A stretch of 23,605 bases of DNA. Source: a virus. Numbering within the stretch: the stretch's first letter is position 1; every line of letters begins with the position of its first letter. The position numbers and the translations under genes were made by a program. Shown here piece after piece: positions 1,178 to 22,684 of this stretch. Location: IMG/VR virus record IMGVR_UViG_3300046740_000429, positions 1 to 23,605 of that record; one strand, given 5' to 3'. The notes beneath the pieces are model-generated. The model did not search any database, was not told the origin of the DNA, and saw only the letters and a program-made list of their open reading frames with translations.

Positions 1178-2907
1178 CAGCGCAGCCCAGAGTAAGCGAT
1201 GGAAACGGTAGCCGTGATGTTCCCAGGCGCCCCGACGGCCACCGAGCAGGCGAGATCGTGCAGGGAATCGAGCCCGAGGGGCGCGGGCGCGTTGCCGGGG
1301 ATAAAACTGATGTCAGCATCAAAGGGTTGATCGCCGTTGCCGGTAAAGTAGTCCGCGCCGTAATAGTGATAGCCGCCGGCGAAGAACAGCACGAGGTCCG
1401 GCGAACTGCCGGCCTCATCCTTGCCGGGCATGATATGCACCAGCACCTGCGTGCGCCGCTGGTTCGGATCGGCCGGAATCGTGAACGTCATGCTCTGGCC
1501 TTGCCGCACGTGGCTCGCAAACGTCCGCGTGTGCGTATAGATCACGGGGCGCGGATTCTTGGCCAGCGACACCATCTGCCGCCAGGTGTCGCCGATGACG
1601 TGTCGGTCGCCGCGGATCGGCCGCCCGACATTATCGACCGTCCAGTGGTCGGTGCCGAGCCCGGTATCGTCAACCGAGCGCGTCACGTCGACGACGGTGC
1701 GAAACTCATTGATGTCGCGGCTGAGGACGCCCGCGATCGCCTGCTGGTCGATCACCTGGACGTCCTTCCCCGCGATGCCACGGTTGTCGCCCACGGCCAC
1801 GGTCGTCACATCGAGGACGCGATGGGCCGCGGCGCGCACCTGGAGGTAGGAGACGCAGGCCCGATACACCGCGGCGGCGGCAGCCCGGCGATCACTGATG
1901 AATGCCGACGCGGGCCGGATCTCGCTGAACGTCTGGGACTGCCAGCGATTGCGCAGCGCGGCGAGGACGCCACTGTTCGCGACGAAATACGTCCAGCCAT
2001 CCTGGCCGTCGCCGGTCTTCAGGTCGGGCCGGGGACGGCGTATCAACGGGAAGGTCGGATCGTACCAGCTATCGGTGATCGGGCCGGTCAGATGCCAGTT
2101 GCCATCCGTGCCCGCGACGATCGCGTTCCCCGTCTCATTCCAGATGTCCCGCAAGCTGGCGCCGTCCACACCCTGCGTCTCCGGGACAACGAGCGTCGTG
2201 ATGCTCTGCGGATCGCGCTGCGGCGCCAGCGCGGTGATCGGGCGCAGATACGCCGGCGGGACACGCGATGCATCGCCGCCGGCACGCTGGAGCCGCAGCC
2301 CACTATCACCCCGCAAATCGCCGAACTCAACGATCCGATCGGCAGTCGCTGAGAGGCGAAACCCGTACCCGGTTTGCTGGCACAGATCGACCAGCGCCGC
2401 CAGCGTCGAGGATGTTTCCACCACGTAGCTGGTGCCAAGGTAAAAGCCCGCCGTACCGGCAATCGCGACCGTGTCCCAATACGTGGCTGAGGGCAGCCGC
2501 GAGTAGTCGCTCGCCAGGTGGATGATGTCTGCCGCCGTCACGTTGACGGGGAGGGCGGGATTGTTGGCGTAGCCGGTCAGCAGCGACCACCGCAACTCCT
2601 CCAGGAGGTCGGAGCAGCGGAAGGTTGCCACCGTGCCGTCGTCCGACTCGCTGTTCTCGCCGACGATAAACAGTCCCTGGTCGAGTCCGTCCTGCCACAA
2701 GCGGATGAACGTGCCCTCGTCGATCGCCGTCGCCCGCCGCGTCGCCAGCGCCAGGGAGAACGTCAACTCACCGGCCGCATTGAGCCGGGCGCCGCGCGGT
2801 GTCCAGGCGATGTCGCGGATGCCGCGCACCGGGCCGGCGATCGGCACGCCGTTGAGCGTCGCCTGAATCGCACCGTGATTGTCGAAGAGGTCCAGCCAGA
2901 CACGCAT
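1177..2907 (-). CDS. Tail hub / tail-associated protein (siphovirus Gp37-like)
   Basis: 576 residues starting ATG at 2907, directly abutting the preceding stop (TAAATG). The N-terminal 120 residues follow the pattern of siphovirus tail hub proteins (ReqiPepy6 Gp37-like): a first strand MRVWLDLFD, then GAGELTFSLA-like beta elements, then DEGTFIRLWQDG and GLFIVG, and LLEELRW. In that family this fold forms the ring under the distal tail protein. The middle (about 120-440) is mixed alpha/beta with a Tyr/Trp-rich stretch. The C-terminal 130 residues are beta-rich (VIYTHTRTF, MTFTIPAD, LVHIMPG, LVLFFAGG, SIAYSG), like a jelly-roll carbohydrate-binding or adhesin module; that reading is inference. 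It lies downstream of the tape measure, distal tail and fibre genes, as expected for the tail tip. Confidence 0.7.
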   Translation of the reverse strand: MRVWLDLFDNHGAIQATLNGVPIAGPVRGIRDIAWTPRGARLNAAGELTFSLALATRRATAIDEGTFIRLWQDGLDQGLFIVGENSESDDGTVATFRCSDLLEELRWSLLTGYANNPALPVNVTAADIIHLASDYSRLPSATYWDTVAIAGTAGFYLGTSYVVETSSTLAALVDLCQQTGYGFRLSATADRIVEFGDLRGDSGLRLQRAGGDASRVPPAYLRPITALAPQRDPQSITTLVVPETQGVDGASLRDIWNETGNAIVAGTDGNWHLTGPITDSWYDPTFPLIRRPRPDLKTGDGQDGWTYFVANSGVLAALRNRWQSQTFSEIRPASAFISDRRAAAAAVYRACVSYLQVRAAAHRVLDVTTVAVGDNRGIAGKDVQVIDQQAIAGVLSRDINEFRTVVDVTRSVDDTGLGTDHWTVDNVGRPIRGDRHVIGDTWRQMVSLAKNPRPVIYTHTRTFASHVRQGQSMTFTIPADPNQRRTQVLVHIMPGKDEAGSSPDLVLFFAGGYHYYGADYFTGNGDQPFDADISFIPGNAPAPLGLDSLHDLACSVAVGAPGNITATVSIAYSGLR

Positions 2908-3276
2908 TTAGCCCTGCTCCACCGCACTGCTGGGAAGCGGTTTGCCGAGAACCGTTCCAGCGGTTGGAGAACCGTTTGCCTGAGACCGTTCATTGCGGTT
3001 CACAGCAAACGGTTCTCCATCACGCAAACCGCTTCCCAGGTCTTCGAGCGGACTGATCAGGCCCGTCTCGGCATTGAAGCCTTCACGGCGCGGATCGATC
3101 GCATATTTGCGAAAGAGGTGCTGCACGAACGAGGTCAGGGCGGCATCGGCATGCACGTAGCGAGCGCGTGCCTCCTCGAACTGGCTCCGCGCCTCCTCGC
3201 GTTCCGCGCCTGCGGCGGTGACGTACTCACATTCCGCCGCCGTCAGTTGGCGTTCCGTTTCGGCGGGCGTTCCCAT
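2908..3276 (-). CDS. Small tail-module protein with coiled-coil-like N-terminus and repeat-derived C-terminus
   Basis: 122 residues from the ATG at 3276, chosen because AGAAGGAG lies 5 nt upstream; starts farther upstream would overlap the fibre gene. Residues 1-65 are rich in Glu, Ala and Arg (ERQLTAAECEY, EREEARSQFEEARARY) and probably form a long helix or coiled coil. Residues 66-78 (FVQHLFRKYAIDP) and the following AETGLI resemble small tail-operon proteins of other siphoviruses. About the last 40 residues are encoded by the nested palindromic element at 2930-3039, so this tail is not ancestral protein sequence. The gene sits between the fibre and hub genes and its TAA abuts the hub ATG. 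Function unknown; a fibre or hub chaperone is possible. Confidence 0.65.
   Translation of the reverse strand: MGTPAETERQLTAAECEYVTAAGAEREEARSQFEEARARYVHADAALTSFVQHLFRKYAIDPRREGFNAETGLISPLEDLGSGLRDGEPFAVNRNERSQANGSPTAGTVLGKPLPSSAVEQG
2930..3039. repeat. Nested palindromic elements: a 55-bp copy inside another 55-bp copy
   Basis: The outer arms 2930-2945 and 3024-3039 are perfect 16-bp inverted repeats (CTGGGAAGCGGTTTGC). The inner segment 2965-3019 is itself a 55-bp palindrome with perfect 15-bp arms (TGGAGAACCGTTTGC). Removing the inner 55 bp leaves an outer element of 55 bp with the same layout: arm, GTTTGC, a GAGAACCG half-core, a 6-nt loop, a CGGTTCAC half-core, then GCAAAC and arm. The same layout is seen at 6678-6731 and 13947-14000. 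The simplest reading is insertion of one family member into another. Confidence 0.85.
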
Positions 3277-3292
3277 CCCCACTCCTTCTGCG

Positions 3293-5758
3293 CTAGACCC
3301 CACCGGAGATCGTGCCGACGAAATATGCCGCGTCGATGAAATAACCCGTCGCGGCGCCCGCATTCGCACCGATCGTGAGCGTGTTGATCTGGTTCACCGC
3401 GAGCGGAATGTTCGTCGCGACGACGATCTGATCGTAGCTCGTGGCGCCGGCAATCAAGGTCTTCGACCCGAAGGTCACACCGGCCGCGGTCCCGTTGAGG
3501 AATGGCTGCACCGTCGCGGAGCATCCCGCCGAGCCACCATGAAGGTTCACGAACAGGATGCCGTTGAAATAGTAGGTTTGCGACGCCGACGTGGCATAAC
3601 TATAGCCCGGAAAGAACGACGTGCTGACCTGTACCAGCCCGCCGGTGTTCGTGATTGCTTGCGGACCGCCGCTCGCGCCCGAGACCACCATTTTCGGCTG
3701 GACCTGCGCGATGACCGCCCGCGAGTTGGTATTGACATTCATCTCGTTGACGAACGCCGTGCCGTTCCAGTAGAACGTGCCGATCGTCATCTGGTTGGCG
3801 TTCGGGTTGTTCGTCGACGAGACCGCCAACTTGAAGGTCGCAACTCCCGCGTCGCTGACATCCGCGAAAAGGAAGTAGGCGCCGGCGGCCTGGCCAACCA
3901 TTGAGAGCGTCACCGTGCTGGTGATGGTGCGCATCTTCGCGTTGACGTAGACCGCGTGCTGCACGCCGCCGGTCGCGGTCAGTGTGACGGACGTCCCACT
4001 GAACCCGAGGTAGAGGGGGAGATAGGGGCTCACAAACCGCGATGCCAGCAGGTCCGCGAGCGTCGCATCGGTGGCGCTCGTCTGCACGCCCGCGGGCGCC
4101 ACGACCAACCCCGAGGCACCGGGAGCCTGCGGTGGGCGGAAATCGGGCGTCGTGTCGATCCGCGCTGCCGTGATCACGGTGGTCGCGTTCGTGATCGGCC
4201 CGATCAGCGCGAGCTTGCGGTTATTCACCGGCAAGAGCGCGGCCGCCGTTGTGGTCGCGGTCACGTCCGAAAGCACGCCCGCGTCGGTGACCGAGAGGAG
4301 ATGATAGAGGTTCCCGGAGACGGGCGTCGTGATCGTGTAGCTCGCGCTGCCCGCATAGGTGGTGAGCGTGCCGGTGGCGACATTATGGAATGACAGCGCG
4401 CCGATCGCGACGGTCATGGCACTGTTCGGGACCACCGCGCCATTGGCGAGTGACGCACCCGGAATCGAACCGGGCCGGAACCCTGTTGCCGCGAGGGTAC
4501 CGTCGGTGTTGGTGATCAGGACGCTCCCGGAGCCGGTGCGCAGCGAGCCCGGCGTGTTGATGTTGCCCGCGGAATCGATCGCGACGGTGCCGTAGAGGAC
4601 GACCTGATCGGACGTGTTCTTGGCGATGACATTCAGGTCGGTACTATTGGCATTGTTCCGCGCGACGATGCCGCCACCGCTCGGCAGGCGAATGACGCCA
4701 CCGGTGAAGGTGCCGCCGTTGAAATCGTAGCCGTACAGGTGCGTGCCGGTGACGCGCCCGTGGAACGTGCTGCTGCTCGCATCATCAATGCTTGCCAGCG
4801 ATGCGCTGTTCGCGGCAAAGACCACGCCCGCCGTAAACGGTGAGCCGGCATTGTAGATGTAGAGTCCCGTGGCGCTGCGCTTGCCACCCGTCCCCGACGA
4901 TCCGAGGTTGATGCCATAGGTATCTGCCGCACCCCATGACGCCGGCGTGGTGTAGCCGGAATCGACGCCACTCTCGTTCTGGGCCCGAACCTCCATCGCG
5001 ACCGCGTAGCCGCCACTGCTGGCGCGCTGCGCCTGAATGTAGGCGCCGAAGCCGGTGCGCGTGCTGCCGGCAAGCGAGACGCCGACACCCATCAGTGCGA
5101 CGGTGTCCGCGCCGGGCTGCGTCGAGGCGGTCTGGGAGAGGACGTAGAGGCCGCCATTCTGGACGGCCTGGGTGGCGAGGGCGTTCGTATAGAGGGAGAG
5201 CGCGACCGATGCCTCAGTGATCGCCACGTTCGCTGAGGGCGCGTACAGGTTGGCGGGCTGATTGTGCGTCACCGAGAGCTTCAGGAGCGGGCCGCCCAAC
5301 GTTGCCGGTGCGCCGCTCGTGCCGATCGCCCATTCGGCCAGTTGCGCGTCATACTGTGCCGCCGAGCCTCCCGCGACATAGAACAGTTTCGTGCCCGGTG
5401 TCTGCCGGATGCGTTGCTGGGCGTCAGTATTCAGGAGGGTGCCCGCGTAGGTCGGCGCCGTGACGCCGGCACGAAAGGTGCCGCTGCCATCCGAGAAGAC
5501 GAAAAAGTTGTTGACGCTGCCGTTGTTGTTCATGACCGCGAAGATGGTCTGCGCGGGATTGCCGGCCGCGCCGCGCACGACGAGGCCCTGATAGGCCGCG
5601 CCGGGAGAGACGATCGTGACCAGGCCGTTGGCGTCCTTCACTACCGCGGTATCGTAGAACGGGTCGACCTTCGCCTTGAGATCGTTCACGGGCGCGTTGA
5701 GATTGGCGGCGGTGAGCGCGCCGCCGAACGGAAACTGCGTGATAGTTGGCAGCGGCAT
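3293..5758 (-). CDS. Large tail fibre / receptor-binding protein
   Basis: 821 residues, start ATG at 5758 with AAGGAG upstream, stop TAG at 3293. Composition is typical of a phage fibre: very rich in Gly, Ala, Ser, Thr and Asn and almost free of Cys. The N-terminus (MPLPTITQFPFGGALTAANLN) probably attaches to the tail. The segment at about residues 60-430 has repeated beta-type turns with many GS/GT/NN pairs, as in beta-helical or trimeric fibres. Near residue 425 it has the motif GSIPGASLANGAV, followed by NSAM, common in fibre and adhesin stalks. The C-terminal 150 residues (STSFFPGYSYATSASQTYYF, then VNLHGGSAG) look like a folded jelly-roll head. The assignment rests on composition, length and position between the distal tail and hub genes. 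The receptor cannot be inferred. Confidence 0.8.
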   Translation of the reverse strand: MPLPTITQFPFGGALTAANLNAPVNDLKAKVDPFYDTAVVKDANGLVTIVSPGAAYQGLVVRGAAGNPAQTIFAVMNNNGSVNNFFVFSDGSGTFRAGVTAPTYAGTLLNTDAQQRIRQTPGTKLFYVAGGSAAQYDAQLAEWAIGTSGAPATLGGPLLKLSVTHNQPANLYAPSANVAITEASVALSLYTNALATQAVQNGGLYVLSQTASTQPGADTVALMGVGVSLAGSTRTGFGAYIQAQRASSGGYAVAMEVRAQNESGVDSGYTTPASWGAADTYGINLGSSGTGGKRSATGLYIYNAGSPFTAGVVFAANSASLASIDDASSSTFHGRVTGTHLYGYDFNGGTFTGGVIRLPSGGGIVARNNANSTDLNVIAKNTSDQVVLYGTVAIDSAGNINTPGSLRTGSGSVLITNTDGTLAATGFRPGSIPGASLANGAVVPNSAMTVAIGALSFHNVATGTLTTYAGSASYTITTPVSGNLYHLLSVTDAGVLSDVTATTTAAALLPVNNRKLALIGPITNATTVITAARIDTTPDFRPPQAPGASGLVVAPAGVQTSATDATLADLLASRFVSPYLPLYLGFSGTSVTLTATGGVQHAVYVNAKMRTITSTVTLSMVGQAAGAYFLFADVSDAGVATFKLAVSSTNNPNANQMTIGTFYWNGTAFVNEMNVNTNSRAVIAQVQPKMVVSGASGGPQAITNTGGLVQVSTSFFPGYSYATSASQTYYFNGILFVNLHGGSAGCSATVQPFLNGTAAGVTFGSKTLIAGATSYDQIVVATNIPLAVNQINTLTIGANAGAATGYFIDAAYFVGTISGGV

Positions 5759-6677: not shown

Positions 6678-6731
6678 TTGGAAAGGGGTTGCATGTGACC
6701 GTTATTGCGGTACACGGCAAACCCTTTCCAA
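6678..6731. repeat. 54-bp palindromic element between tape measure and distal tail genes
   Basis: Perfect 10-bp outer arms (TTGGAAAGGG with CCCTTTCCAA), then a nearly complete inner stem with two single-base bulges, and a 6-nt loop. It abuts the tape measure stop and fills nearly all of the 63-base gap. Aligned with the opposite strand of 13947-14000, both are 54 bp and share an 11-base and a 17-base core, while the arm and loop bases differ. The transcript would fold into a strong hairpin just before the distal tail ribosome binding site. Confidence 0.85.
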
Positions 6732-9700
6732 CTACATGGACAGCCCGTATTGGCGGCCGGTGACGGTGAAGACGTTGCTGAGCTTGTCGATCACGCGGTT
6801 CGCGATCGCTTCCTCGCTCTGGCCCGCGGCGCCATAGACCTGGACGGCTCCCGGTTGGAGTGTCACCGTGACCGGACTCGCCCCGGCGCCGCGAGCAGAC
6901 GAACCCACCCCCGCCGGCGTCATCGTTGCGTACGATGACGCCCCAAGTGCGGCGCTGATCTGGCCCACCCCGCCGAGGATGCCCGCGGCAATCCCGGCAG
7001 GAATCCAGCGGCCGACCTCGTTTGCAAAGACGGTGGAGGGTGACGAGATCCCGAGCGCGCTCTTCGTCTGCTGCAGCGCGATCCCGACGCCACCCTTCAG
7101 CGCTTCGATCACGCGATGCACATTCTGGCTGATGCCCAGCGCGATTCCCGCCATGATGCCATCTCCGATGTTCATGGCCGCCTTCGTCGTCTCGCTCGAT
7201 GAGGCGTTCATGGTCGTCGCCATTCCGGTCAGGGCGGTCTTGACTGCGCCGGGAAGATCACCGAGGGCGGTCTTGACGGGTGTTGTCGCTTGCGCACCCA
7301 GCGCCTTCGCGGAGGATGCGACCGTGGCCGCGGGTTTATTGAACATCGAGTTGAAGACACCCATCATGCCGTCCACGGCCTTCTGGTCGGCGGCCTTCAC
7401 GGGCGCGTTGAACATGTTGTTGAACACACCCATCATGCCATCGACCGCCTTCTGATCGGCAGCGACGACGGGTTTATTGAACATCGAGTTGAAGACACCC
7501 ATCATGCCATCGACCGCCTTTTGATCGGCAGCCTTGACCGGCGCGTTGAACATGTTATTGAACACACCCATCATGCCGTCCACGGCCTTCTGGTCCGCGG
7601 CAACGACCGGCTTGTTGAACATGTCGTTGAAGACGCCCATCATGCCGTCCACGGCCTTCTGGTCGGCGACCTTGACCGGCGCGTTGAACATCGAGTTGAA
7701 GACGCCCATCATCCCATTCACGGCATTCTGGTCCGCAGCCGCGCCTGCCTGCTCGATTCCGACGCCGAGGTACGTGCGCAGATCCTTCCCCGCCGCCGTC
7801 GCAAGCTGCCGCGCCTTTTCCAGCGCCTGCGCCGTCACCCTGTCCATCGTCGTCATCAGTTCGGGGTGTGCGGCGAGGATGCCGGAGATGATGCCCTGCA
7901 CGATGGGTGTGCCGACCTCGTCCGCGAACACCTTCGACGGTGAGCCGATGTGGAGGGCGCTCTTCGCCGCGTCGACGGCGCCGCTGACGGCATCGCGTGC
8001 CGCCCCCGCCAACTGACCGGCCGCGCCGCGCACGCCGGAGACCATGCCGCTGACGATGGCAGTGCCGATGCTGGTGGCGAGCCCGCCGGCCCAACCAATC
8101 GCGTCCGAGAGCGCGCCGCGGATGCCCTCGAGCCCCTCGTTCGCTGCCGATTTGATACCGTCCCACGCGCTTTGTGCCGCCGATTTGATGCCGTCCCAGA
8201 CCGATTGTGCGGTGCTCTGGATCGCGTTCAGTGCCGTCTCGATCAGCGATTGGATGCCGTCCCACGCGGATTGTGCCGCTGCTTTGATGCCATCCCACGC
8301 CGATTGGGCCAGGGATTGCAGCGCCGTCATCCCGGTATCAACGATCGCGTGCAGCGCGTCCATCCAGACGCCAGCGAGCGTCTGCATCGTGTTCCAGATG
8401 CCGGTGACGATGTTCTGGACGTTCTGCCAGGCGCCGGACCAATCGCCCTGAATCAGGTTCATGACCAGGGCGATCGCATTCGAGATGATATTGAGCTCGT
8501 TGCCGATCGTCGCGCTGATCACGGTCCAGACGCCGGAGATGATGTTCTTGATCGCCTCACCGTGCGCCGTGATGAAGTTCGCGATATTCTCGAAGTTGGT
8601 CTGAATCTGTGTCGCGAGCGCGATGACGGTCGGGATGACCTCGCTCGAGATGGTCTGCCACGCCTGGATCAGCATTGGCAGGATCGTCTCAGCGACGAAC
8701 TGGATCGCCGGCGCGATCTGATCGCGGAAGAAGGTCTGCACCTGCGCCGCGAACTGCTGGATCGCTGGCAGCCCGACGTTCACGAACCAGGCGGCAAACT
8801 GCTGTAAAACCGGGATCACATTCGTCCCGATCCAGGCCGCCGCCTGCTGGAGCGCGGGAATGAGCGTGCCCGTCACCCAGGCGGCGAACTGCTGGATCGC
8901 CGGAACGACAACATTGCGGATAAAGAGTCCGAGGTTGCCGAGCGCGGCCTGGAAGCCGACGATCCCCGGCGCGTCCGTCCAGTTGCCTTGCAGCGCCTGC
9001 GCGAAGGTCAGCACGCTGTCACGGACAAACTGGAATGCCTTGCCGAGCGCAAAGGCAATGGTCTGCAGTTTGGTCAGGCCGGCGCCACCACCCGCGCCCT
9101 CCGTCGCGGCCTGGAATGCCTTGATCGCGCCGGGCAACTGCTGGTTGAAGGCGACGAGGAGCGGCGTGATCACCGGCAGGATCGCCGCGCCCAACTGCGT
9201 CAGGACGCGCACGCCGGTGTTCTTCAGCAGCTGGAACTGCGCCGACGCGGTCTGGCTCATCTTCTGGTAGGCGGCCTCCGCGCTCCCCGCCGCCGACGTG
9301 TTCTGCGCGAGGGCGGCGCGGACGTTGTCCAGTTCGCCCATGATGACGCGTGCGCCCGTCTGTGCCTGGATGTCCGGGAAAATCTTCTGGATGTAGGCGT
9401 TCCGCTGCGCCTCCGTCATCGTGGCCAGGTGCGTTTGCAGATCGCCCATCACATCGATCGTCGAGCGGAAGTTCCCGCTCGCGTCCGTGGTGGCGATGCC
9501 GAGGTCCTTGAAGCCCTTCGTCGCGGCGGGCGTGTGAATCTTCAGCAGCAGGTTGGAAAGGTTGTTGATGTTCTGTGCGGCGGGCCCGCCCTCTTTCGTC
9601 ACCCCGACGATCAAGGCGCCGAGTTCGTCGAAGCCGACGCCTGCGCCCTTCGCGGACTGCGTCACCAGGCCAAGATTTGCCGCCAGTTCCTGGCCGTTCA

Positions 9701-10214
9701 CGACACCGGAGTTCACGGTATTGAAAAACACATCGCTGATATGCGATGCGTCATCGACGGACGAGCCGTAGGCGTTCATCACGCCGATGACTGCGGTGCC
9801 GAACGTCTGGGCGTCCGTCTGCGCGCCCACCGCACCCTTCGCGAACTGCTCGACGAGTTGCAGCGCCTGGTCCTGCGAGACATTGATCGACGAGAAGATG
9901 TTGTAGAGGCCGTCTGCCAGCGACTGCGCCGATTGCGGCACGCGCGTCGAGATCTCCGAGAGCGAGTTGAACACGGCGCTCGTATCGATGTCCGGCTTGA
10001 TCGTGCTGATATTGGCGACGCTCTGCTGCAGATCAGCCGCCATCTTGACGCCGGCGATGCCGACGCCCGCGAGCGCCGTGCCGATCAACGCGGTGCCGCC
10101 CGAGATGGCAGTGCCGAGGCCCGCGAGCTTGCTGCCGAAGCCGGAGATGCTGCTTTCCGCCTGCGACGAATCAGCCGTGATAATTGCCTTGAGTTCGGCG
10201 GCCTGGATCGGCAC
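6732..10214 (-). CDS. Tail tape measure protein
   Basis: 1160 residues, GTG start at 10214 preceded by AGAGGT, following the tail assembly chaperone. It sets tail length and is probably released into the cell during DNA injection. Residues 30-55 are a hydrophobic glycine-rich segment (GTAISGGTALIGTALAGVGIA). Residues 60-370 match the TP901-type tape measure core, with QSLADGLYNIFSS, VGVTKEGGPAAQNI and IFPDIQAQTGARVIMGELD. Residues 430-540 hold about 22-residue units around PAIQQFAAW; residues 640-715 hold repeated AQSAWDGI units. Residues 828-965 are six 23-residue repeats. SPSKVFADEVG and SPSTVFANEVG are the C-terminal GI-SPS motif common in this family. By the usual ratio of about 0.15 nm per residue, the tail would be near 170 nm. 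Confidence 0.95.
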   Translation of the reverse strand: MPIQAAELKAIITADSSQAESSISGFGSKLAGLGTAISGGTALIGTALAGVGIAGVKMAADLQQSVANISTIKPDIDTSAVFNSLSEISTRVPQSAQSLADGLYNIFSSINVSQDQALQLVEQFAKGAVGAQTDAQTFGTAVIGVMNAYGSSVDDASHISDVFFNTVNSGVVNGQELAANLGLVTQSAKGAGVGFDELGALIVGVTKEGGPAAQNINNLSNLLLKIHTPAATKGFKDLGIATTDASGNFRSTIDVMGDLQTHLATMTEAQRNAYIQKIFPDIQAQTGARVIMGELDNVRAALAQNTSAAGSAEAAYQKMSQTASAQFQLLKNTGVRVLTQLGAAILPVITPLLVAFNQQLPGAIKAFQAATEGAGGGAGLTKLQTIAFALGKAFQFVRDSVLTFAQALQGNWTDAPGIVGFQAALGNLGLFIRNVVVPAIQQFAAWVTGTLIPALQQAAAWIGTNVIPVLQQFAAWFVNVGLPAIQQFAAQVQTFFRDQIAPAIQFVAETILPMLIQAWQTISSEVIPTVIALATQIQTNFENIANFITAHGEAIKNIISGVWTVISATIGNELNIISNAIALVMNLIQGDWSGAWQNVQNIVTGIWNTMQTLAGVWMDALHAIVDTGMTALQSLAQSAWDGIKAAAQSAWDGIQSLIETALNAIQSTAQSVWDGIKSAAQSAWDGIKSAANEGLEGIRGALSDAIGWAGGLATSIGTAIVSGMVSGVRGAAGQLAGAARDAVSGAVDAAKSALHIGSPSKVFADEVGTPIVQGIISGILAAHPELMTTMDRVTAQALEKARQLATAAGKDLRTYLGVGIEQAGAAADQNAVNGMMGVFNSMFNAPVKVADQKAVDGMMGVFNDMFNKPVVAADQKAVDGMMGVFNNMFNAPVKAADQKAVDGMMGVFNSMFNKPVVAADQKAVDGMMGVFNNMFNAPVKAADQKAVDGMMGVFNSMFNKPAATVASSAKALGAQATTPVKTALGDLPGAVKTALTGMATTMNASSSETTKAAMNIGDGIMAGIALGISQNVHRVIEALKGGVGIALQQTKSALGISSPSTVFANEVGRWIPAGIAAGILGGVGQISAALGASSYATMTPAGVGSSARGAGASPVTVTLQPGAVQVYGAAGQSEEAIANRVIDKLSNVFTVTGRQYGLSM
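7320..7733 (-). repeat. Six tandem 69-bp repeats in the tape measure gene
   Basis: Six copies with an exact 69-nt period (equivalent GAACAT points at 7341, 7410, 7479, 7548, 7617 and 7686) encode 23-residue units of the form DQKAVDGMMGVFN-x-MFN. The end of the unit alternates between APVK and KPVV/KPAA types, so the higher-order unit is 138 bp (46 residues) present three times. This suggests duplication of a dimer rather than of a single unit. Confidence 0.95.
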
Positions 10215-13380: not shown

Positions 13381-13932
13381 TCACCTCGTCGCGGCGGTCA
13401 CGTCAGGCCGCGTCATCGTCACCTGTTGCACGGCTTGCTTGGCCCGGTAGGTCGCGGCGAGGTCGGTCAGCGTCGTGACGCGCTCGCGGCGGTTATAGAC
13501 ATTCGTCTCCTGCGTCGTGCCATATTCGAGCTTGATCAGGGCGATCCACTGCTCGAGCACGTCCGCTGCGGCGGCGTAGAGGTCGAAGAGTTTGCCGACA
13601 ATGTAGACGGGCGGGAGCTGATTCGCCGCGAAGGTCCAGTGGCCGCCGCTCAGATCGCTCGTCGTGGGCGTGAGCACCGCGAAGGTGCTCGAGACAAGCT
13701 GCGCATCGCTCTCCCACCACTGGCTGTCGTACGGTGCGTAGTAATCGTGCCAGGTCACCGGACCGCCGGGAGCGAACGTCTGCGCCGGCGTCAGTTCCAG
13801 ATAGCGGATGTCCGTGCGGTGCTGGTCGAGCGTGTCCTGCAACTCCTGATCAGTAAATACCGGTGTTCCGCCGCGATCACTGATCAAGAGACGCAGCCTC
13901 GCGATGATGTCCGCCATAGTCGCGCGTGCCAT
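13381..13932 (-). CDS. Head-tail connector (head completion) protein
   Basis: 183 residues, ATG at 13932, stop overlapping the region of the next ribosome binding site. It begins with the helical MADIIARLRLLISD and FTDQELQDTLDQHR, followed by DIRYLEL, which is the usual start of neck/adaptor proteins that bind under the portal. A WHDYYAPYDSQWW aromatic patch follows, and the C-terminal half has helices LFDLYAAAADVLEQWIALI and TDLAATYRAKQAV. Helical hairpins of this kind are seen in SPP1 gp15/HK97 gp6-type connectors. Synteny downstream of capsid genes supports it. Confidence 0.78.
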   Translation of the reverse strand: MARATMADIIARLRLLISDRGGTPVFTDQELQDTLDQHRTDIRYLELTPAQTFAPGGPVTWHDYYAPYDSQWWESDAQLVSSTFAVLTPTTSDLSGGHWTFAANQLPPVYIVGKLFDLYAAAADVLEQWIALIKLEYGTTQETNVYNRRERVTTLTDLAATYRAKQAVQQVTMTRPDVTAATR

Positions 13933-13941
13933 CGTCCGCGC

Positions 13942-14262
13942 CTACTCGGAAGGGGGTTTGCCGTGTACCGTTTCAGCGGTCACATGCGCCCCCCCTTCCG
14001 ACAACTCAGCGGGCGGTGGGACTTCGGTCGCGCCCTCCGCCATGAGCCGGTTATACGTTTCAGAGCCGACCTCGACGTGAAAGGTGCCGGTACCCGTCTG
14101 CAACCAGACCGTGCCATCCCCCGCATCCGGGCTGGCGGGCTGTTCGTCCGCAGCGGCGCGTTCGGTTGGCTCCGCATCGCCTGCGGTGGCGCGGGCGGAG
14201 GTCTCCGCATCGGCGGCGCTGCGCTCCGCATCGGCTGGATTGGGCTTCGCGTTCTTACCCAT
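13942..14262 (-). CDS. Small head-region protein with repeat-derived C-terminus
   Basis: 106 residues, ATG at 14262 with AGGAGA 8 nt upstream. Residues 1-45 are low-complexity Ala/Glu/Asp/Ser/Thr, probably disordered. Residues 48-80 (GTVWLQTGTGTFHVEVGS then YNRLMAEGATEVP) look like a small beta domain with a following helix. The last 18 residues (EGGAHVTAETVHGKPPS) are encoded by the palindromic element 13947-14000, and the stop comes 2 nt after it. I know no function; position after the decoration-like gene suggests a minor head protein. Confidence 0.65.
   Translation of the reverse strand: MGKNAKPNPADAERSAADAETSARATAGDAEPTERAAADEQPASPDAGDGTVWLQTGTGTFHVEVGSETYNRLMAEGATEVPPPAELSEGGAHVTAETVHGKPPSE
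13947..14000. repeat. 54-bp palindromic element at the 3' end of a head gene
   Basis: Perfect 10-bp outer arms (CGGAAGGGGG with CCCCCTTCCG) and a conserved core matching the element at 6678-6731 in opposite orientation. The two elements have the same length, but five outer base pairs differ, each with both partners changed. The loop is TTTCAG on the + strand. The element lies inside the reading frame, ending 2 nt before the stop. Confidence 0.85.
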
Positions 14263-16196: not shown

Positions 16197-16532
16197 CTAC
16201 TCCTTTGCGTCGCCGATCAGTACGCGAATCAACTCCGGGTTGCGCCTGAGCGTATCGAGCAGGATGGGTGCGAGCGCACGCACGATGCGCTCCTCATTGT
16301 CAAGATCGGCATTCCCCGCGAGGTCGTTGCAACCGTGCATCACTTCGTGCAGCAGGGTCACTGCGGTCTTCTCCGCGCACATGTTCGGGTCGATGAGGAT
16401 GCGATGCTCGATGTATTGCATCGCGCCCCATACCAGCGTCTTGGCCTTGTGCTCATAACGGATGAGTTCACCATCATCCGAGACGATGGGATACGTGTAG
16501 GGACCAATGACAATCGCCGGAGGAAGATGCAT
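16197..16532 (-). CDS. HExxH zinc metallopeptidase-like protein
   Basis: 111 residues, ATG at 16532, three bases after the previous stop. The zincin motif HEVMH is at residues 62-66 within TAVTLLHEVMHGCND, preceded by the strand HRILIDP (43-49), and followed about 15 residues later by the acidic NEER (79-82), which could supply a third metal ligand as in other gluzincin or ImmA-like proteins. The order strand, HExxH helix, acidic helix fits a minimal metallopeptidase. It sits between portal and scaffold, where head maturation proteases are often coded, but usual head proteases are not zincins. Cleavage of a head protein, or of a host repressor, are both speculative. Confidence 0.7.
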   Translation of the reverse strand: MHLPPAIVIGPYTYPIVSDDGELIRYEHKAKTLVWGAMQYIEHRILIDPNMCAEKTAVTLLHEVMHGCNDLAGNADLDNEERIVRALAPILLDTLRRNPELIRVLIGDAKE

Positions 16533-16535
16533 GCG

Positions 16536-16787
16536 CTACTTCCCGCCTGTGCGTATTGCGGCTGACTCCTTCGCAGTCGCCGGCAGCGCGCTCGTCAGAC
16601 CGAGACGGGCCGCGATCGCTTTGATCTTCCGACGCACCGCGGCAGGATTGCTCGCATGACCGGACAGGTTCCAGGCGGCCCGCACGTCCGACGCGTCCTT
16701 GATCGGGTATGACAGGCCCGGCCCGGCAAATCGGTCAGGATGCTCTTTTTTGTATTGGAGCCGCGCCGCCATCGTCCAGTTCGCCAT
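16536..16787 (-). CDS. Small DUF6582-like protein
   Basis: 83 residues. The ATG at 16787 is chosen because GAGGG lies 7 nt upstream; upstream starts in the same frame run into the preceding membrane gene. The segment YKKEHPDRFAGPGLSYPIKD, followed by VRAAWNLSGHAS and VRRKIKAIAARLGL, follows the pattern of small DUF6582 proteins: a Phe-rich start, a YPI motif, then two helices. Such domains occur in phage head proteins and attached to head proteases, and their function is unknown to me. Confidence 0.7.
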   Translation of the reverse strand: MANWTMAARLQYKKEHPDRFAGPGLSYPIKDASDVRAAWNLSGHASNPAAVRRKIKAIAARLGLTSALPATAKESAAIRTGGK

Positions 16788-16803
16788 CTCGCACCCTCGC
16801 TCG

Positions 16804-16980
16804 CTATTTGCCGGCGTGCCAGAGAAGGAAACAGATTGCCCAAAGGCAGAAGCACGCTGACCAGACGCGCGGGTGATAGCGCGTGCCGTAGGTCTCTCCC
16901 GCGAAGTAGCCCAGGATCGCATCCAATCCGAAGACGATGGCGGTAATCAAAAACAACACCAGAATGAGCGTCAGGGTCAT
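16804..16980 (-). CDS. 58-residue two-helix membrane protein (holin-like?)
   Basis: A short gene with ATG at 16980 and a nearly perfect AGGAGGTGA ribosome binding site 7 nt upstream, which supports it strongly. The peptide begins MTLTLILVLFLITAIVFGLD (first transmembrane helix), has a polar turn with AGETYGTRYHPR, then a second helix containing SACFCLWAICFLLW and ends HAGK. Two helices with a short polar loop fit a small holin or membrane accessory protein. However, it lies between portal and scaffold genes rather than near a lysin, so its role is open. Its stop (TAG at 16804) precedes the DUF6582-like start by 16 nt. Confidence 0.75.
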   Translation of the reverse strand: MTLTLILVLFLITAIVFGLDAILGYFAGETYGTRYHPRVWSACFCLWAICFLLWHAGK

Positions 16981-17041
16981 CGTGTCACCTCCTACAAACC
17001 GGGCGGCTCGTCCTGCCGCGTCACAGCCTGCATCCCGTTCG

Positions 17042-18451
17042 TCATGGCGTCCCCGCCGAACCTGGCGCCGGCGTTGGCGCTGCCTGCGCGCTCGCCGCGG
17101 CCTGAGCTTCCTCCGTCGCCATGTTTTGTGCTTCGAGCAGTGGATTCAGGCCGACCTTCTGGGCCGCGGTCGTTTTCGAGAGGATTCCCATCGCCATCTG
17201 CGCCGTCAGCGTCTCCGCTTCGGCTTTCGGATCGGACGGTACGATCTCCGGCCAGTGGGTTTCGACCTGGTTACTGGCGCCGAAACCGCCGAACTCCAGC
17301 AGGCGCCGGTTCAGTTCTTCGAGCAAGTCGCCATAGAGGCGCCGCTTGACCTGCGTGCGCTGCAAGAGCGGGCCGTAGAGAATCTGTAACGCGAGCCCGG
17401 AGAGTTGACCGATGTTATCGAACTTCCCCGTCGTCACTTCCGGCACCTGCGTCGTCTCGTGAAACGCGGCCTTGATGCGCTCGTAATAGGCGATGGAGGA
17501 GGCGAGGTCACTCTGCATCTCGAGGTTCGCCAGTTCGGCGTCCTTGTTCGGCAGGATCGTGACCTGATCGGGGCCGGTCTTCAGATCCGTCGCCTGGAAG
17601 CCCTTGCCCCATGTCTTCGGGTGCGCGTGGAAGCGGATGATGCGGTTCGTGTTCGAGAGGACGAAGTTGACCGCGTTGCCGAGCTCCTGCACATCGTCCT
17701 CGAGGTCGGAGATCCCCCAATACTCATTGGGCGCGGGCAGATTCTGGCAGTCAACGATCGGCGGCCACGGATAGGGCCAGACGCTTTCGGCGACGATCCG
17801 CCACTGGTTGCTGTCGGGCCGCGACTCCTCATCGGTGATCGTCCAGCGCGTGCCGGATGGATCAGACGCGGTGGTCTGGCGGTAGTTCATTGGCCGGCGA
17901 CTGCGCGGATCGATGGCGTTATACGTGTAGACGTAGCGGCAGACACAATCGATGTCGTCCGGCATCCACTCAACGCGCATGCAGGCCGGATCGAGGTTGA
18001 CGAGGCGGGGGTACTGCTGCCCGTTGCGCGGCTCCACGATCTTGATGAACGCATGCCCACAGACCGCGCCGTTGAGCCCGACCTTGAGCAGGAACGTCTG
18101 TTGCTTGTTGTCCGCCCAGACGTTCTCGAGATAGACATCTGCGGGCGTTTCCACATCGGCCGTGGGTTCGCTCTCACCGGTATCATCGACGCCGGTGGTG
18201 TCCTCCGCGGTGTCGGCAATCTCGAACGCGAGATCGCGCCCGAACAGGTAAAACGCGCTCGTGTCGACCGCGAGGCGCGCGAGGTTGACGCAGACATTGT
18301 CATCCGCCTGTCCCGGTGCGACGACGAGCGGCTTCTTCGTGTCACCCTGATAGGCGAGCCAGGCGTTGCGAATCCTGCGTGCGCGCGCGATGTCGTCGGT
18401 GTTGGCCTCGGTCAGGATGTTCTGGCCGTTGAAGAGGTAACTCAGGCTCAT
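17042..18451 (-). CDS. Portal protein (SPP1 gp6-like)
   Basis: 469 residues, ATG at 18451 with GAGGT upstream, 10 nt after the terminase stop. It forms the dodecameric ring at the head vertex through which DNA enters and to which the tail binds. Early residues VCVNLARLAVDTSAFYLFGRDL (54-75), the clip/stem region with NGAVCGHAFIKI (about 132-143), LVNLDPACMRVEW, and the long stem helix segment ending in LEDDVQELGNAVNFVLSNTNRIIRFHAHP are typical of Phage_prot_Gp6/SPP1-type portals. The C-terminal crown region (LLEELNRRLLEFGG, then a helix with KTTAAQKVG and an Ala-rich tail) also fits. Position right after terminase confirms it. Confidence 0.93.
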   Translation of the reverse strand: MSLSYLFNGQNILTEANTDDIARARRIRNAWLAYQGDTKKPLVVAPGQADDNVCVNLARLAVDTSAFYLFGRDLAFEIADTAEDTTGVDDTGESEPTADVETPADVYLENVWADNKQQTFLLKVGLNGAVCGHAFIKIVEPRNGQQYPRLVNLDPACMRVEWMPDDIDCVCRYVYTYNAIDPRSRRPMNYRQTTASDPSGTRWTITDEESRPDSNQWRIVAESVWPYPWPPIVDCQNLPAPNEYWGISDLEDDVQELGNAVNFVLSNTNRIIRFHAHPKTWGKGFQATDLKTGPDQVTILPNKDAELANLEMQSDLASSIAYYERIKAAFHETTQVPEVTTGKFDNIGQLSGLALQILYGPLLQRTQVKRRLYGDLLEELNRRLLEFGGFGASNQVETHWPEIVPSDPKAEAETLTAQMAMGILSKTTAAQKVGLNPLLEAQNMATEEAQAAASAQAAPTPAPGSAGTP

Positions 18452-18461
18452 CGGTTACCTC

Positions 18462-18953
18462 TCACGCGTAGAGCGACGGCGCGTACGTGACCGCGGCAGT
18501 CAGCCCGCGCCCTGCCACTGCGAGCGCCAGCGCCGTCACGCAATCGTCGTGCATGCCCTCAGGTGCCGAGTAGCGAACGCCAGTGCGCGTGTAGGCATAC
18601 TCGAACGCTTCCAGCTCACTGACGATCGCGCCATCCGGGTAGCGGATCTCCCGTCGCTGAATCGCGACGGCGAGCCCTTCCATTAGCTGCTGCTTCGACG
18701 GCGCGGAGAACTTGTAGCCGCGGTAGTTGATCCGGCCGGCCGTCTGCAACTCCTCAAGGACCGGATCGCCCACGCCGGTCGAATCGACGAGCGCGGGCGT
18801 CTGACCGACGAGACCGACGATGCGCGGAATGGTCGCCTGCCACGGCCCCTGCCAACGCTCGAAGCGGCAGACCGCGCCGCCGGCGTCGAGGGCGATACAG
18901 ACGGTCCAGTCCACCGACTTCGCGAGGTCGATGCCCCAGATAGCGGTGCTACC
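18462..18953 (-). CDS. terL: Terminase large subunit, nuclease half (reading frame after the frameshift)
   Basis: The -1 frame relative to the ATPase half, open from 19019 and carrying coding sequence from about 18953 to the TGA at 18462. Its first recognisable segment, WGIDLAKSVDW, holds the first catalytic Asp of the RNase H-like nuclease. VCRFERWQGPW and ALVDSTGVGDPVLEEL follow, and a late GMHDDCVTALALA segment carries the C-terminal acidic residues. An initiation at the GTG at 18914 would lose the first catalytic Asp, so separate translation seems unlikely. If the frames are joined, the whole protein is about 414 residues, normal for this terminase type. I infer either a frame error in the sequence, a real disrupting mutation, or recoding without a standard slippery heptamer. 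Confidence 0.88.
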   Translation of the reverse strand, partial: GSTAIWGIDLAKSVDWTVCIALDAGGAVCRFERWQGPWQATIPRIVGLVGQTPALVDSTGVGDPVLEELQTAGRINYRGYKFSAPSKQQLMEGLAVAIQRREIRYPDGAIVSELEAFEYAYTRTGVRYSAPEGMHDDCVTALALAVAGRGLTAAVTYAPSLYA

Positions 18954-19705
18954 CGGTCGGCAATGGCGGCGAGACCGAACGGGTTGCCACCATCGTCGGA
19001 TGGCTCCGCGAGATAGAGTTCACGGAACACGGCATCGGGCAAAGTACGCTTCGCGTCTTCGATCTCCGCCGCATCCAGGACGCCCGCGGCGACGGCATCG
19101 TAGGCGGTGATCTTGGCGTAGTGCATATCGGGCTCACCCGACTCCGCACGGCGACAGAGGCGATAGAAGAAGTTCTTTCGCCCCTTGACGTTGCCGATGA
19201 GCCGGACGGGGCCGCGCGTCTGGGTGAGGGTAGATCGCAGTGCGTACCAGGCGTCTTCCTTCCAGCGACTCGCTTCATCGCCAACCGCAGCGTAGACGTC
19301 TTCTCCGAATAACGAATCAGGATGATCGGCGCCCTTGAACCAGATCACCGCGCCGTTCGGCAGGGTGATCGTCAGTTCGCTGGCGTTGTAGTGGTGCAGG
19401 TGCGCAGGCAGGGTGCGCTTCAGTCTCCGAAAGGCGATCTTCGCCTGCGGGTAGATCGGCGCGACCCACCAGAAGTTCCTGCCCGGCTTGCTGAGCCACG
19501 CCTGTTCGTAGAGCCAGGCGATACAGCCAACTGTCTTACCGGCTTTGGTACTACTTTCCGTCAGTCCGTAGCGTTCGGTACAGAAGATTGCGGCGAGCTG
19601 TTTCGGGTACAGCCAGGGCCGCTCATAGTTGATCGTCCGCGTCGCCGGCGTCGGCGTCGATGGTGATGCGATCGAAGGAGAGCGTGAAGGAGATCGGACC
19701 GCCAT
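18683..19705 (-). CDS. terL: Terminase large subunit, ATPase half (frame lost near 18940)
   Basis: Start ATG at 19705, overlapping the small subunit by 83 nt. The Walker A-type segment SSTKAGKT is at residues 51-58, Walker B VYAAVGDE at 137-144 with the catalytic Glu, and a coupling motif RLIGNVKGRKNFFYR at 168-182. YLAEPSDDGGNPFG (231-244) is the usual link between the ATPase and nuclease domains. Beyond about residue 256 (APLS) the frame becomes Arg/Ser/Pro-rich nonsense to 18683, while the nuclease sequence continues in the -1 frame, so only about the first 255 residues are genuine. This motor cuts and pumps DNA into the head through the portal, whose gene follows. Confidence 0.88.
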   Translation of the reverse strand: MAVRSPSRSPSIASPSTPTPATRTINYERPWLYPKQLAAIFCTERYGLTESSTKAGKTVGCIAWLYEQAWLSKPGRNFWWVAPIYPQAKIAFRRLKRTLPAHLHHYNASELTITLPNGAVIWFKGADHPDSLFGEDVYAAVGDEASRWKEDAWYALRSTLTQTRGPVRLIGNVKGRKNFFYRLCRRAESGEPDMHYAKITAYDAVAAGVLDAAEIEDAKRTLPDAVFRELYLAEPSDDGGNPFGLAAIADRVAPLSGASTSRSRWTGPSVSPSTPAARSAASSVGRGRGRRPFRASSVSSVRRPRSSIRPAWAIRSLRSCRRPAGSTTAATSSPRRRSSS

Positions 19706-20126
19706 CCTTGCCCGTCACTTCCGCGATCGCCTTGCGCCCGCCACGTTCCTTCGCGATGTCGTCCAGCGTGCCGCGGAGCTGGGCGACCTGCTGCGACTTG
19801 AACGCCGGTACCTCGACGGCCCTCCCGTTCGCGCTCAGCTTGATGTCCGCGCCATAGAAGCCGGTGCGCAAATCGGCTTCGAGCATGCGATTCAGCCATT
19901 CGAGTTGTGCGACGCGGGCATCAACCTCTGACAAACCACGATCAATCGCTGCTGTTTGGCGTTCGGCCTTGGCGGCGGCGATCACCGGCTGCATCTTGCC
20001 TGCGTAGTACTTCACATTCGCGATCGTGCAGCCGAAGGCGGCGGCAATATCCGCATAATGATCGCCGGCGGCGATGCGGCCGCGAATCGCGTCGCGTTGA
20101 TGTGCGGAGAGTTTGTTTGCGCTCAT
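19623..20126 (-). CDS. terS: Terminase small subunit
   Basis: 167 residues from ATG 20126. A TTG at 20228 in the same frame would read through the terminator hairpin and is not chosen. The N-terminus carries a helix-turn-helix: LSAHQRDAIRGRIAAGDHY, then ADIAAAFGCTIANVKYYAGK, with a following recognition-like helix; terminase small subunits use this to bind the packaging site. Residues 55-105 are a long helix (AAIDRGLSEVDARVAQLEWLNRMLE), probably oligomerisation. The C-terminal part (VPAFKSQQVAQLRGTLDDIAKER and an acidic end DADAGDADD) may contact the large subunit. It directly precedes the large subunit, with overlap, which fixes the role. Confidence 0.82.
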   Translation of the reverse strand: MSANKLSAHQRDAIRGRIAAGDHYADIAAAFGCTIANVKYYAGKMQPVIAAAKAERQTAAIDRGLSEVDARVAQLEWLNRMLEADLRTGFYGADIKLSANGRAVEVPAFKSQQVAQLRGTLDDIAKERGGRKAIAEVTGKDGGPISFTLSFDRITIDADAGDADDQL

Positions 20127-20160
20127 GTGGTCTAAGCCCGGTCTAACCGTGCCGGTGGGC

Positions 20161-20186
20161 AAAAGAAAGCCCGGCCGTGCGCCGGG
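20161..20186 (-). terminator. Intrinsic terminator between early and late operons
   Basis: On the minus strand CCCGGC (20186-20181), a 5-nt loop and GCCGGG (20175-20170) form a 6-bp all-GC stem followed by CTTTCTTTTG. It lies 39 nt after the stop of the last early gene and 35 nt before the terminase small subunit ATG. It would end early transcripts, or act as a leader terminator that must be overcome for late expression. Confidence 0.7.
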
Positions 20187-20203
20187 GACAGTACGAGTGT
20201 TCC

Positions 20204-20240
20204 TGTCAATGATATAAACCCGTGTCAAGTCCCGTCAAGT
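20204..20240 (-). promoter_or_regulatory. Possible promoter with tandem TTGAC repeats before the late operon
   Basis: On the minus strand TTGACG (20238-20233) is followed after 16 nt by TATATC (20216-20211), a fair sigma70-like pair. The same strand carries ACTTGACGGG and ACTTGACACGGG in direct repeat, and a third TTGACA at 20209-20204. The first start would be near 20204, about 18 nt before the terminator hairpin. This could be a late promoter or an operator with iterated TTGAC sites; evidence is modest. Confidence 0.4.
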
Positions 20241-20713
20241 TCCCAACCCGCATGCAGGCTTTCCCACTCGTCCTCGATAGCCGTGCGCACCTGGGAGTGG
20301 TAGGTGCGCACCGACGCCACCGCGATCCCGAAGAGCCGCGCCGCCTCGTCATCAGGCACGACGGCGTTCGGATGCTCGGCGGAGTAGACGCACCATTGGA
20401 GCCGGCCGCGACTATCCGCACGCTGGACCATCCCAACTTCGCAGGCGATCAGCACCTTCCAATGTGAAGCATGCAGGTGGTGCCGGGCACGCGATTCATG
20501 GAACGCGCGCTGAATCGCGGTCGTGACGGGGCCCCAGTTGGCGCGTGCGAGCGCCGCACCGCGGATGCCATCGGAACTGCGGTGGGCGCTCATCGTGACG
20601 GGCATCAGCGTCCGGTCGGATGAATACTCGCCGCCGGAGGTGAGGACGAACCGCAACGCGCCCCAGGGGAAGAGCGGGATCGCCCGGTGAATCTCATCAG
20701 TCATCACCACCAT
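20225..20713 (-). CDS. Putative late transcription regulator with C-terminal helix-turn-helix
   Basis: 162 residues from ATG 20713 (GAGG about 6 nt upstream); ATG 20704 also fits and would overlap the preceding TGA as TGATG. The N-terminal 90 residues have no family I know (LFPWGALRFVLTSGG, VTTAIQRAFHESRARHHL). The C-terminal 50 residues read VVPDDEAARLFGIAVASVRTYHSQVRTAI, a helix-turn-helix like sigma region 4 or ArpU-type late regulators of phages. It is the last gene of the early group, right before the terminator/promoter gap and terminase, the usual place of a late activator. Function as such is inference. Confidence 0.62.
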   Translation of the reverse strand: MVVMTDEIHRAIPLFPWGALRFVLTSGGEYSSDRTLMPVTMSAHRSSDGIRGAALARANWGPVTTAIQRAFHESRARHHLHASHWKVLIACEVGMVQRADSRGRLQWCVYSAEHPNAVVPDDEAARLFGIAVASVRTYHSQVRTAIEDEWESLHAGWELDGT

Positions 20714-20973
20714 CGCCTTCCTCGCCGCCGGCGGCAGCGCTCGCGCTCCAGATATTCATCACCGAGCCGCGCCCGATACTCCCTGCCCCGGGCCGCGTGG
20801 CACGCTTTGCACTCGAAGCGGTACTGGCCGGGAGCGCCATACACACCGTCGCGGCGGGAGAACTCGCCCTGGTCAATGTTGCGCTCCTCGCCGCAAGTCG
20901 GGCAGTGCTTCATGCGGGCTCCGGTCGTCGGGTCCACGTACACCGGATTGGGTGAGGGGTGGCAGCGGGTCAT
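20704..20973 (-). CDS. Small zinc-binding protein (two CxxC pairs)
   Basis: 89 residues from ATG 20973, which overlaps the previous stop as ATGA; starts farther upstream in this frame lie inside the transporter gene. CPTC (24-27) and CKAC (55-58) form a four-cysteine zinc site around a short loop with FSRRDGVYGAPGQYRF. The C-terminal part is strongly basic and arginine-rich (RGREYRARLG, then an Arg/Cys/Trp end), so nucleic-acid binding is likely. Zinc fingers of this type are frequent in phages, sometimes as N-terminal pieces of HNH endonucleases; here no HNH follows. Confidence 0.75.
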   Translation of the reverse strand: MTRCHPSPNPVYVDPTTGARMKHCPTCGEERNIDQGEFSRRDGVYGAPGQYRFECKACHAARGREYRARLGDEYLERERCRRRRGRRWW

Positions 20974-21578
20974 GAAACCACCGCCACGGTAGCAGGCGCT
21001 ACAGACCGACGCCGGCGCACGAGCCACAGCGCAACAAGCGCCGGCACGATCATGAGTTCCTTGCCAAGCACCTGCCCCGGCATCAGCGTGAGCGAGAAGC
21101 CGGCCAGCCACAAGAAGAGGCCGGAATCGATGATTGCCCCCACGGTATTGCTGCAGGTCAGCGCCCACGCCCGATGATTCACACGGAGTGGGCTATAAAC
21201 CAGGAAATCGGCCGTCTCGCTGAACAGGAACGCCAGACCGCTAGCGAACGCGAAGCGCAGGGGTGAGACCGCCGTCGAGAGGATCGCCCCGACGGCGATG
21301 GCGATGATCACCGCCGGCCGCCCCGCCGTTTCCTGAAGCCAATCACGCGCGCTGAAACTGACGCCGGCGGCGAACACGCCCGCGGGCATCGCGAGTCCGA
21401 AGAGTGTGACGACGCCGAACGTGGCGAGCAGCCAGTTTGCGCCGACGATGCACAGGAGATACAGCAAAGCGGCTGAGAGCCCCCACAGGACGCGCCAGCG
21501 GGCAGAACGACGAATGACGCCTTTGCGCGCGTCACGGGCTGCTGCGAGGTCTACGGGCGCACTCACGGCGTCATTCAC
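20970..21578 (-). CDS. VUT-family (YhhQ-like) queuosine-precursor transporter
   Basis: 202 residues. The start is set at GTG 21578 because GGAGGTGA lies 4 nt upstream and it overlaps the antitoxin stop as GTGA; an upstream GTG (21593) has no such site. About six transmembrane helices can be seen: WGLSAALLYLLCIVGANWLL, VTLFGLAMPAGVFAAGVSF, a third AVIIAIAVGAIL, FAFASGLAFLFSETADFLVY, CSNTVGAIIDSGLFLWLAG and IVPALVALWLV. The FLFSETADFLVYSPLR and SNTVGAIIDSGLF segments are characteristic of the VUT/DUF165 family, whose members import preQ0/preQ1, precursors of 7-deazaguanines, across the inner membrane. Phage versions are known with DNA-modification genes; none are visible in this window. Confidence 0.82.
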   Translation of the reverse strand: MNDAVSAPVDLAAARDARKGVIRRSARWRVLWGLSAALLYLLCIVGANWLLATFGVVTLFGLAMPAGVFAAGVSFSARDWLQETAGRPAVIIAIAVGAILSTAVSPLRFAFASGLAFLFSETADFLVYSPLRVNHRAWALTCSNTVGAIIDSGLFLWLAGFSLTLMPGQVLGKELMIVPALVALWLVRRRRSVAPATVAVVS

Positions 21579-22672: not shown

Positions 22673-22684
22673 GGTCTCCTCCCC

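Follow-up and report, generated by a model that had tools for sequence, protein, structure and literature searches.

A Nested Pair of Hairpins in a Phage Tail-Module Gene

The window, that is, the whole stretch of DNA analyzed, is a 23.6-kb linear IMG/VR record. On its minus strand, a small tail-module gene (positions 2908–3276; ORF 2908–3369/3276) harbors near its 3′ end a nested pair of hairpins (2930–3039) that encodes its C-terminus. The perfect 16-bp arms of the outer hairpin (2930–2945 and 3024–3039, complementary at 16 of 16 positions) are interrupted by an inner hairpin with a type-1 core, located on the minus strand at 2965–3019, whose arms (2965–2979 and 3005–3019) are complementary at 15 of 15 positions. 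This confirms the original prediction of a palindrome lying within another palindrome of the same plan. The 121-nt stretch containing the pair is predicted to fold strongly both as RNA (−69.5 kcal/mol, z = −8.1) and as DNA (−47.1, z = −11.5), none of the shuffled sequences folding as well in either case. The inner copy scores 68.1 bits (E = 1.5e-15) against the covariance model of the family, of whose training set it is part. The 110-base palindrome is one hairpin of about 55 bases inserted in another copy: at least 11 further nested insertions occur in other phage contigs and stand-alone copies are common. It is not a unit that always occurs whole, because stand-alone 55-bp copies are the rule.

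The size of the insertion differs from that initially proposed. Removing 55 bp (2965–3019) was expected to restore the full outer element; it leaves this element one base short, and the gene then reads out of frame beyond its stop. Removing 54 bp (2966–3019) and keeping T2965 yields CTGGGAAGCGGTTTGCCGAGAACCGTTCCAGCGGTTTCACGCAAACCGCTTCCCAG, a complete 56-bp member of the family, and leaves the C-terminus (...SSAVEQG*) and the stop identical. Most simply, the net inner insertion is therefore of 54 bp, and one target base doubles as the outermost arm base. The outer element would thus comprise on the plus strand a 5′ part (2930–2965) including T2965, probably reused as the outermost base of the inner hairpin, and a 3′ part (TCAC-GCAAA-arm, 3020–3039), identified by the pairing of the outer arms and by the rejoined element. 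The insertion most likely preserved the reading frame, which had been thought to be shifted. Similarly, a 57-bp inner insertion kept the frame in the relative G001, and the relatives G002 and G003, which lack the element, end in ...DGTISRVP..*. The nest of the window may represent one insertion event, with the frame kept, into a gene whose C-terminus tolerates it.

In the window, G001, and G003, rejoining restores a perfect outer element only if a single base of the target is retained; on one side, the outermost base of the arm comes from the target, and the base facing it is new. The nests of ATC type, G012, and G019:24790 can be read in the same way, and no reused base is seen in L008, G017, the L159 site, and G019:23391, the first three of which look even. 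Few independent cases stand behind the rule of an extra base.

A Hairpin Family in One Group of Uncultured Phages

Search patterns derived from the window copies were matched against other viral contigs. An initial pattern in which the TT at the end of the loop was fixed retrieved 52 contigs, many of them by chance, and these were separated by folding; L160, L126, and L148 are chance matches without arms. Pattern scans of IMG/VR identified about 90 copies, interrupted outer elements and imperfect copies included, in roughly 24 distinct contigs of related temperate phages. By reading whole carrier contigs, we obtained 69 intact placements. The family is apparently undescribed: we found no such hairpin family of phages in the open-access literature, and Rfam 15 gave nothing above the gathering threshold, the best matches being generic hairpins far below it.

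The elements are 53–58 bp long. On one strand, they follow the plan arm - TGC - c - GTGT - ACCG - loop of 5–8 - CGGT - c - ACAT - GCA - arm, with two single bulged bases on opposite sides, 4 bp apart. The TGC..GCA pairs, the G of GTGT, and both bulges are near-invariant. The ACCG/CGGT pairs covary (AGCG/CGCT, ACAG/CTGT, CGCG/CGCG, and others), and the outer 12 arm pairs vary freely, the partners changing jointly. With respect to the bulged core, the loop reads in either direction (CCAGAA vs. TTCTGG), as if the tip inverted across the 4-bp ACCG/CGGT stem. Integron attC sites, which recombine as folded single strands, have the core boxes RYYYAAC/GTTRRRY and go together with an integron integrase. 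Judged by eye, the GTTTGC/GCAAAC of the outer element of the window presumably does not fit the GTTRRRY box.

The window contains two further copies, both stand-alone. The one at 6678–6731 (minus strand; 63.0 bits, E = 4e-14 with the covariance model) has a single arm mismatch and lies between a dit-like gene and the adjacent upstream gene; no relatives of the dit-like protein were found. The other, at 13947–14000 (plus strand; 45.1 bits, E = 5e-9), has arms that are degenerate beside the core and is antisense to the genes. According to our own rough gene caller, copies mostly occupy gene boundaries, some lie within long genes, and both orientations occur. The long tail gene of the window (6732–10214) contains six tandem 69-bp repeats (7270–7809).

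Filled and Empty Sites

The mobility proposed for the element is supported by orthologous sites that are empty in close relatives and show clean insertion. Three junctions are exact. The copy L008:515 is missing from contigs with 98% identical flanks (GAAG^AAGTAGG), G017:17308 from 94% identical relatives (CTCTAC^AGGTG), and L159:474 from the window at 85.5% identity. The unoccupied target of the latter lies on the minus strand of the window at 22101–22119 (GCCGCCG^ATGCACG). A gene for a VRR-NUC nuclease-like protein is found nearby (21847–22041), the L159 element being near the orthologous position. Another unoccupied site of the window (16206–16226, plus strand) corresponds to a nested pair in G024, with 89% identical flanks. 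Conversely, the site of the window copy 6678–6731 is empty in G001, G002, and G003 (80–83% identity), and the element at 13947–14000 is missing in two relatives of about 70% identity. At the end of the tail-module gene, the site is empty in G002 and G003 and occupied by a different nested pair in G001. The empty G003 site (8686–8717) is itself palindromic: a perfect 12-bp inverted repeat encloses a loop of 8 nt, and its sequence bears no relation to that of the element.

The insertions are exact units of 54–57 bp, and the neighboring DNA is not exchanged. We observed no target-site duplication at the exact empty sites, and flanks share 4 bases in none of the copies (0.5 expected). No clear motif was found in the flanks of stand-alone copies. 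Two identical copies lie 176 bp apart in G014 and three copies with the same arms are found in different contexts in G004; these are recent copies. Since the arms are the same in different contexts, they travel with the element. These G004 and G014 copies led us to abandon the idea that the target serves as the template for each arm.

Arm Pairing and Covariation

At 12 of 15 arm positions, the copies differ from one another and the changes are compensated. In the covariation alignment, 99.4% of the cells are paired and 17 of 23 pairs are altered on both sides; the covariation score of 0.697 compares with 0.148 after shuffling and at most 0.144 after sliding, a test that is partly circular because the aligned copies had been found by their arms. 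An independent test was made on copies picked by the core alone. Arms of at least 12 bp were present in 47 of 49 viral contigs, compared with none of 15 chance matches in bacterial genomes. Within carriers, 61 of 62 core-only matches are flanked by arms; of the 610 arm pairs, 601 are Watson–Crick and one is G-T. As a negative control, we used unrelated phage contigs that had been returned by a search for further ATC-type nests: they contain one TGC-armed hairpin in 985 kb, whereas 545 kb of carriers contain 64.

Selection for an RNA or DNA hairpin could also maintain the pairing of the arms. Selected RNA stems normally show G-U intermediates. Their near absence argues against RNA and suggests that, at the DNA level, one arm is copied from its partner.

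Nesting and Target Choice

We identified 13 insertions within another copy: one each in the window, G001, G003, and G024, two in G014, five in G019, and a triple nest in G006, with which its near-copy in G011 was counted once. One G019 outer element contains two inner ones. All 13 insertions fall in the 26-position core and none in the arms, an outcome with a probability of about 6e-5 if positions were used evenly, outer elements with broken arms being harder to detect. Three junctions adjacent to the bulges account for 10 of the 13 nests: CG^TGTACCG in five, whose inner elements are all ATCYTT-armed, CGGT^CAC-type junctions in three, all TGGARR-armed and including that of the window, and CGTGT^(A)CCG in two. 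The window junction CGGT/TCAC had been taken as a target preference. It does recur in two other nests, as CGGT^CACAT and CGGT^CTCGT, but it is one target among several: different core positions are used by the nests, and stand-alone copies lack a flank motif. Nested copies amount to 13 of about 90, whereas the elements occupy 0.9% of the DNA (5.6% of the non-coding DNA). Tolerance of harmless sites may explain some of this excess, and some nests could conceivably share ancestry.

Carriers and Searches for a Mobilizing Protein

The carriers are related temperate tailed phages, with a tyrosine integrase in G002 and a serine recombinase in G006. RecT and VRR-NUC proteins are each encoded in 6 of 17 carrier contigs, and a GIY-YIG protein in G002. 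As they occur in only some of the carriers, we kept VRR-NUC and RecT as leads for the mobilizing protein. The phage G014 has about ten elements densely clustered in the region of its RecT and VRR-NUC genes (16509–22888). Neither a Y1 transposase (PF01797), detected in control genomes, nor a reverse transcriptase (PF00078) was found in the 17 carrier contigs. These missing genes prove little because the contigs are metagenomic fragments, and an enzyme of host origin of either kind is possible.

Within the sensitivity of the searches, no copy of the element was found by pattern scan in 84,980 bacterial genomes. In bacterial genome contigs, the strict pattern gave no match, and the 15 matches of a broad pattern are all armless and attributed to chance. 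The covariance model, in runs without a positive control, found none in 397 genomes of the G034 phylum or 297 of the G032 phylum. A hairpin from an Acidimicrobiia MAG (G034; E = 4.5e-4) with a TTTGtCGTGTA-like stem was rejected as a coincidence: it is a single copy, lacks the bulged core, and has no relative in the 397 genomes. Similarity of integrase and portal proteins, used to search for hosts, was below 60% identity in all cases, and positions 2800–3300 of the window had no blastn match in the phages collection.

Comparison with Known Short Mobile Palindromes

Like short non-autonomous mobile hairpins, the phage elements are dispersed hairpin repeats, present or absent at orthologous sites. 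Such hairpins are already known from mitochondria, where fungal double hairpins, the yeast GC clusters (GC42), and sponge RHEs are also short, GC-rich, and mobile, mostly intergenic, and tolerated at gene ends (PMC4478555, PMC2800124). Yeast GC clusters merge and shuffle, and Allomyces elements lack target duplications. The mitochondrial hairpins differ by their location in organelle genomes and their unrelated sequence, and for GC42 a duplication of an AG target is putative; the word "nested" does not appear in the text of either paper (PMC4478555, PMC2800124).

Bacterial REPs, RPEs, and MITEs are likewise known short mobile palindromes (PMC3733652, PMC10969869). REPs, i.e., the GTAG and CGTC palindromes, share with the phage hairpins a small size, bulged stems, and many copies, and their recognition as single strands by the RAYT transposase has been proposed (PMC3733652). 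In contrast, the phage hairpins have a longer stem, lie in phages rather than in the chromosome, and have no Y1 transposase in their carriers; REP stems contain G-T pairs, unlike the phage arms. No REP-type end tag (GTAG or CGTC) or any other conserved flanking or terminal tetranucleotide was seen in 69 copies. Rickettsia palindromic elements (RPEs) and prokaryotic MITEs are also non-autonomous palindromes with in-frame coding insertions (PMC10969869). However, RPEs are about 150 bp long, and MITEs end in inverted repeats that are fixed and, as a rule, duplicate their target, whereas the arms of the phage hairpins vary between copies, with no fixed inverted repeat common to all, and no duplication is generated. 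The T4-type promoter stem-loops (PeSLs), as far as the account cited in PMC3950731 describes them, are similarly dispersed and thought to be mobile. They combine a promoter with a stem-loop and mediate the exchange of modules; the phage hairpins insert as exact single units and nest, a comparison that concerns the units themselves.

A Model for Hairpin Mobility

We consider that these observations as a whole are best explained, with a probability of roughly 0.7, by a non-autonomous family of mobile DNA hairpins relying on a putative recognizer acting in trans, on fold-back synthesis, and on core-targeted nesting. A putative protein, of phage or host origin, would recognize the folded single strand or an extruded cruciform through the two bulged bases. 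Insertion would be completed by fold-back (snapback) DNA synthesis, the 5′ arm serving as template for the 3′ arm, and this copying would often continue into the flank for one or two bases. Fold-back synthesis would explain why the arms vary and yet pair almost perfectly, why the target is not duplicated, and why an additional base complements the flank. Insertion may favor resident cores, since these extrude the same hairpin with its bulges, and nests would therefore form. A narrower version, which we put forward only tentatively, holds that the hairpin is restricted to phages and moves as a folded DNA strand, that a mobilizing protein reads the bulges, and that a single arm is informational and the other re-made by fold-back at each insertion, preferential insertion into the cores of other copies giving rise to Russian-doll nests.

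The strong folding, the compensatory changes, and the location of most copies in short spacers between genes or at the ends of genes would also be expected of RNA-level regulatory or protective hairpins (terminators, RNase III sites, or stabilizers of mRNA 3′ ends) maintained by selection and gained or lost by cassette recombination, as for the PeSLs of T4. This explanation is unlikely, since copies lie in both orientations relative to transcription, several are inside long genes, no T-tract is present, and only 1 of 610 arm pairs is G-U; furthermore, exact insertions of 54–57 bp with the neighboring DNA unexchanged, and self-nesting at fixed core positions, do not fit it. The scarcity of G-U pairs also weighs against spread through an RNA, in which a hairpin transcript would be reverse transcribed and then inserted, as proposed for the Allomyces mitochondrial double hairpins on the basis of the same absence of target duplication (PMC2800124). 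Despite the strong conserved RNA fold, this route seems rather improbable given the two orientations within operons and given that no reverse transcriptase was found in the 17 carrier contigs, though a host enzyme could be used. Template switching during replication, without any dedicated recognizer, might by itself make and spread palindromes: the arms look copied from one another, the loop occurs in both orientations (CCAGAA and TTCTGG), and the empty G003 site is an inverted repeat. Yet a 24-base bulged core common to about 90 copies in different contexts must derive from a template and is suggestive of a recognized structure, and confinement to one phage group also speaks against this process, which we regard as very improbable on its own.

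If mobility of DNA hairpins is indeed involved, tailed phages carry their own selfish hairpins of about 55 bp, among the smallest mobile elements, whose self-targeting leaves a readable order of insertions. Their freely varying, near-perfect arms point to a fold-back copying step rarely caught in natural DNA, and nests and empty sites provide before-and-after pairs for dissecting transposition without a known enzyme. The elements also contribute coding sequence to the C-termini of phage proteins. Compared with known short hairpins, they stand out by an unusual habit of self-nesting and by their arm-copying behavior.

Other Hairpins in Carrier Contigs

Some members of the family harbor a different, longer GC-rich hairpin in their loop (G004 (L084), 13719–13802 and 47398–47483; G019, 19319–19402). 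Their loops are 36 nt long with GCAGGC..GCCTGC-like stems, as if another type of hairpin entered loops. Hairpins without the TGC core were also found in carrier contigs (G007, 50607–50667 and 46022–46150; G010, 8497–8574). These hairpins, e.g., TGATGAAGGGTTATCGCACC...GGTGCGACAACCCTTCATCA and TGGTTCTCCTTTATCGCACC...GGTGCGACAAAGGAGAACCA, resemble a second family with another core and similarly variable arms.
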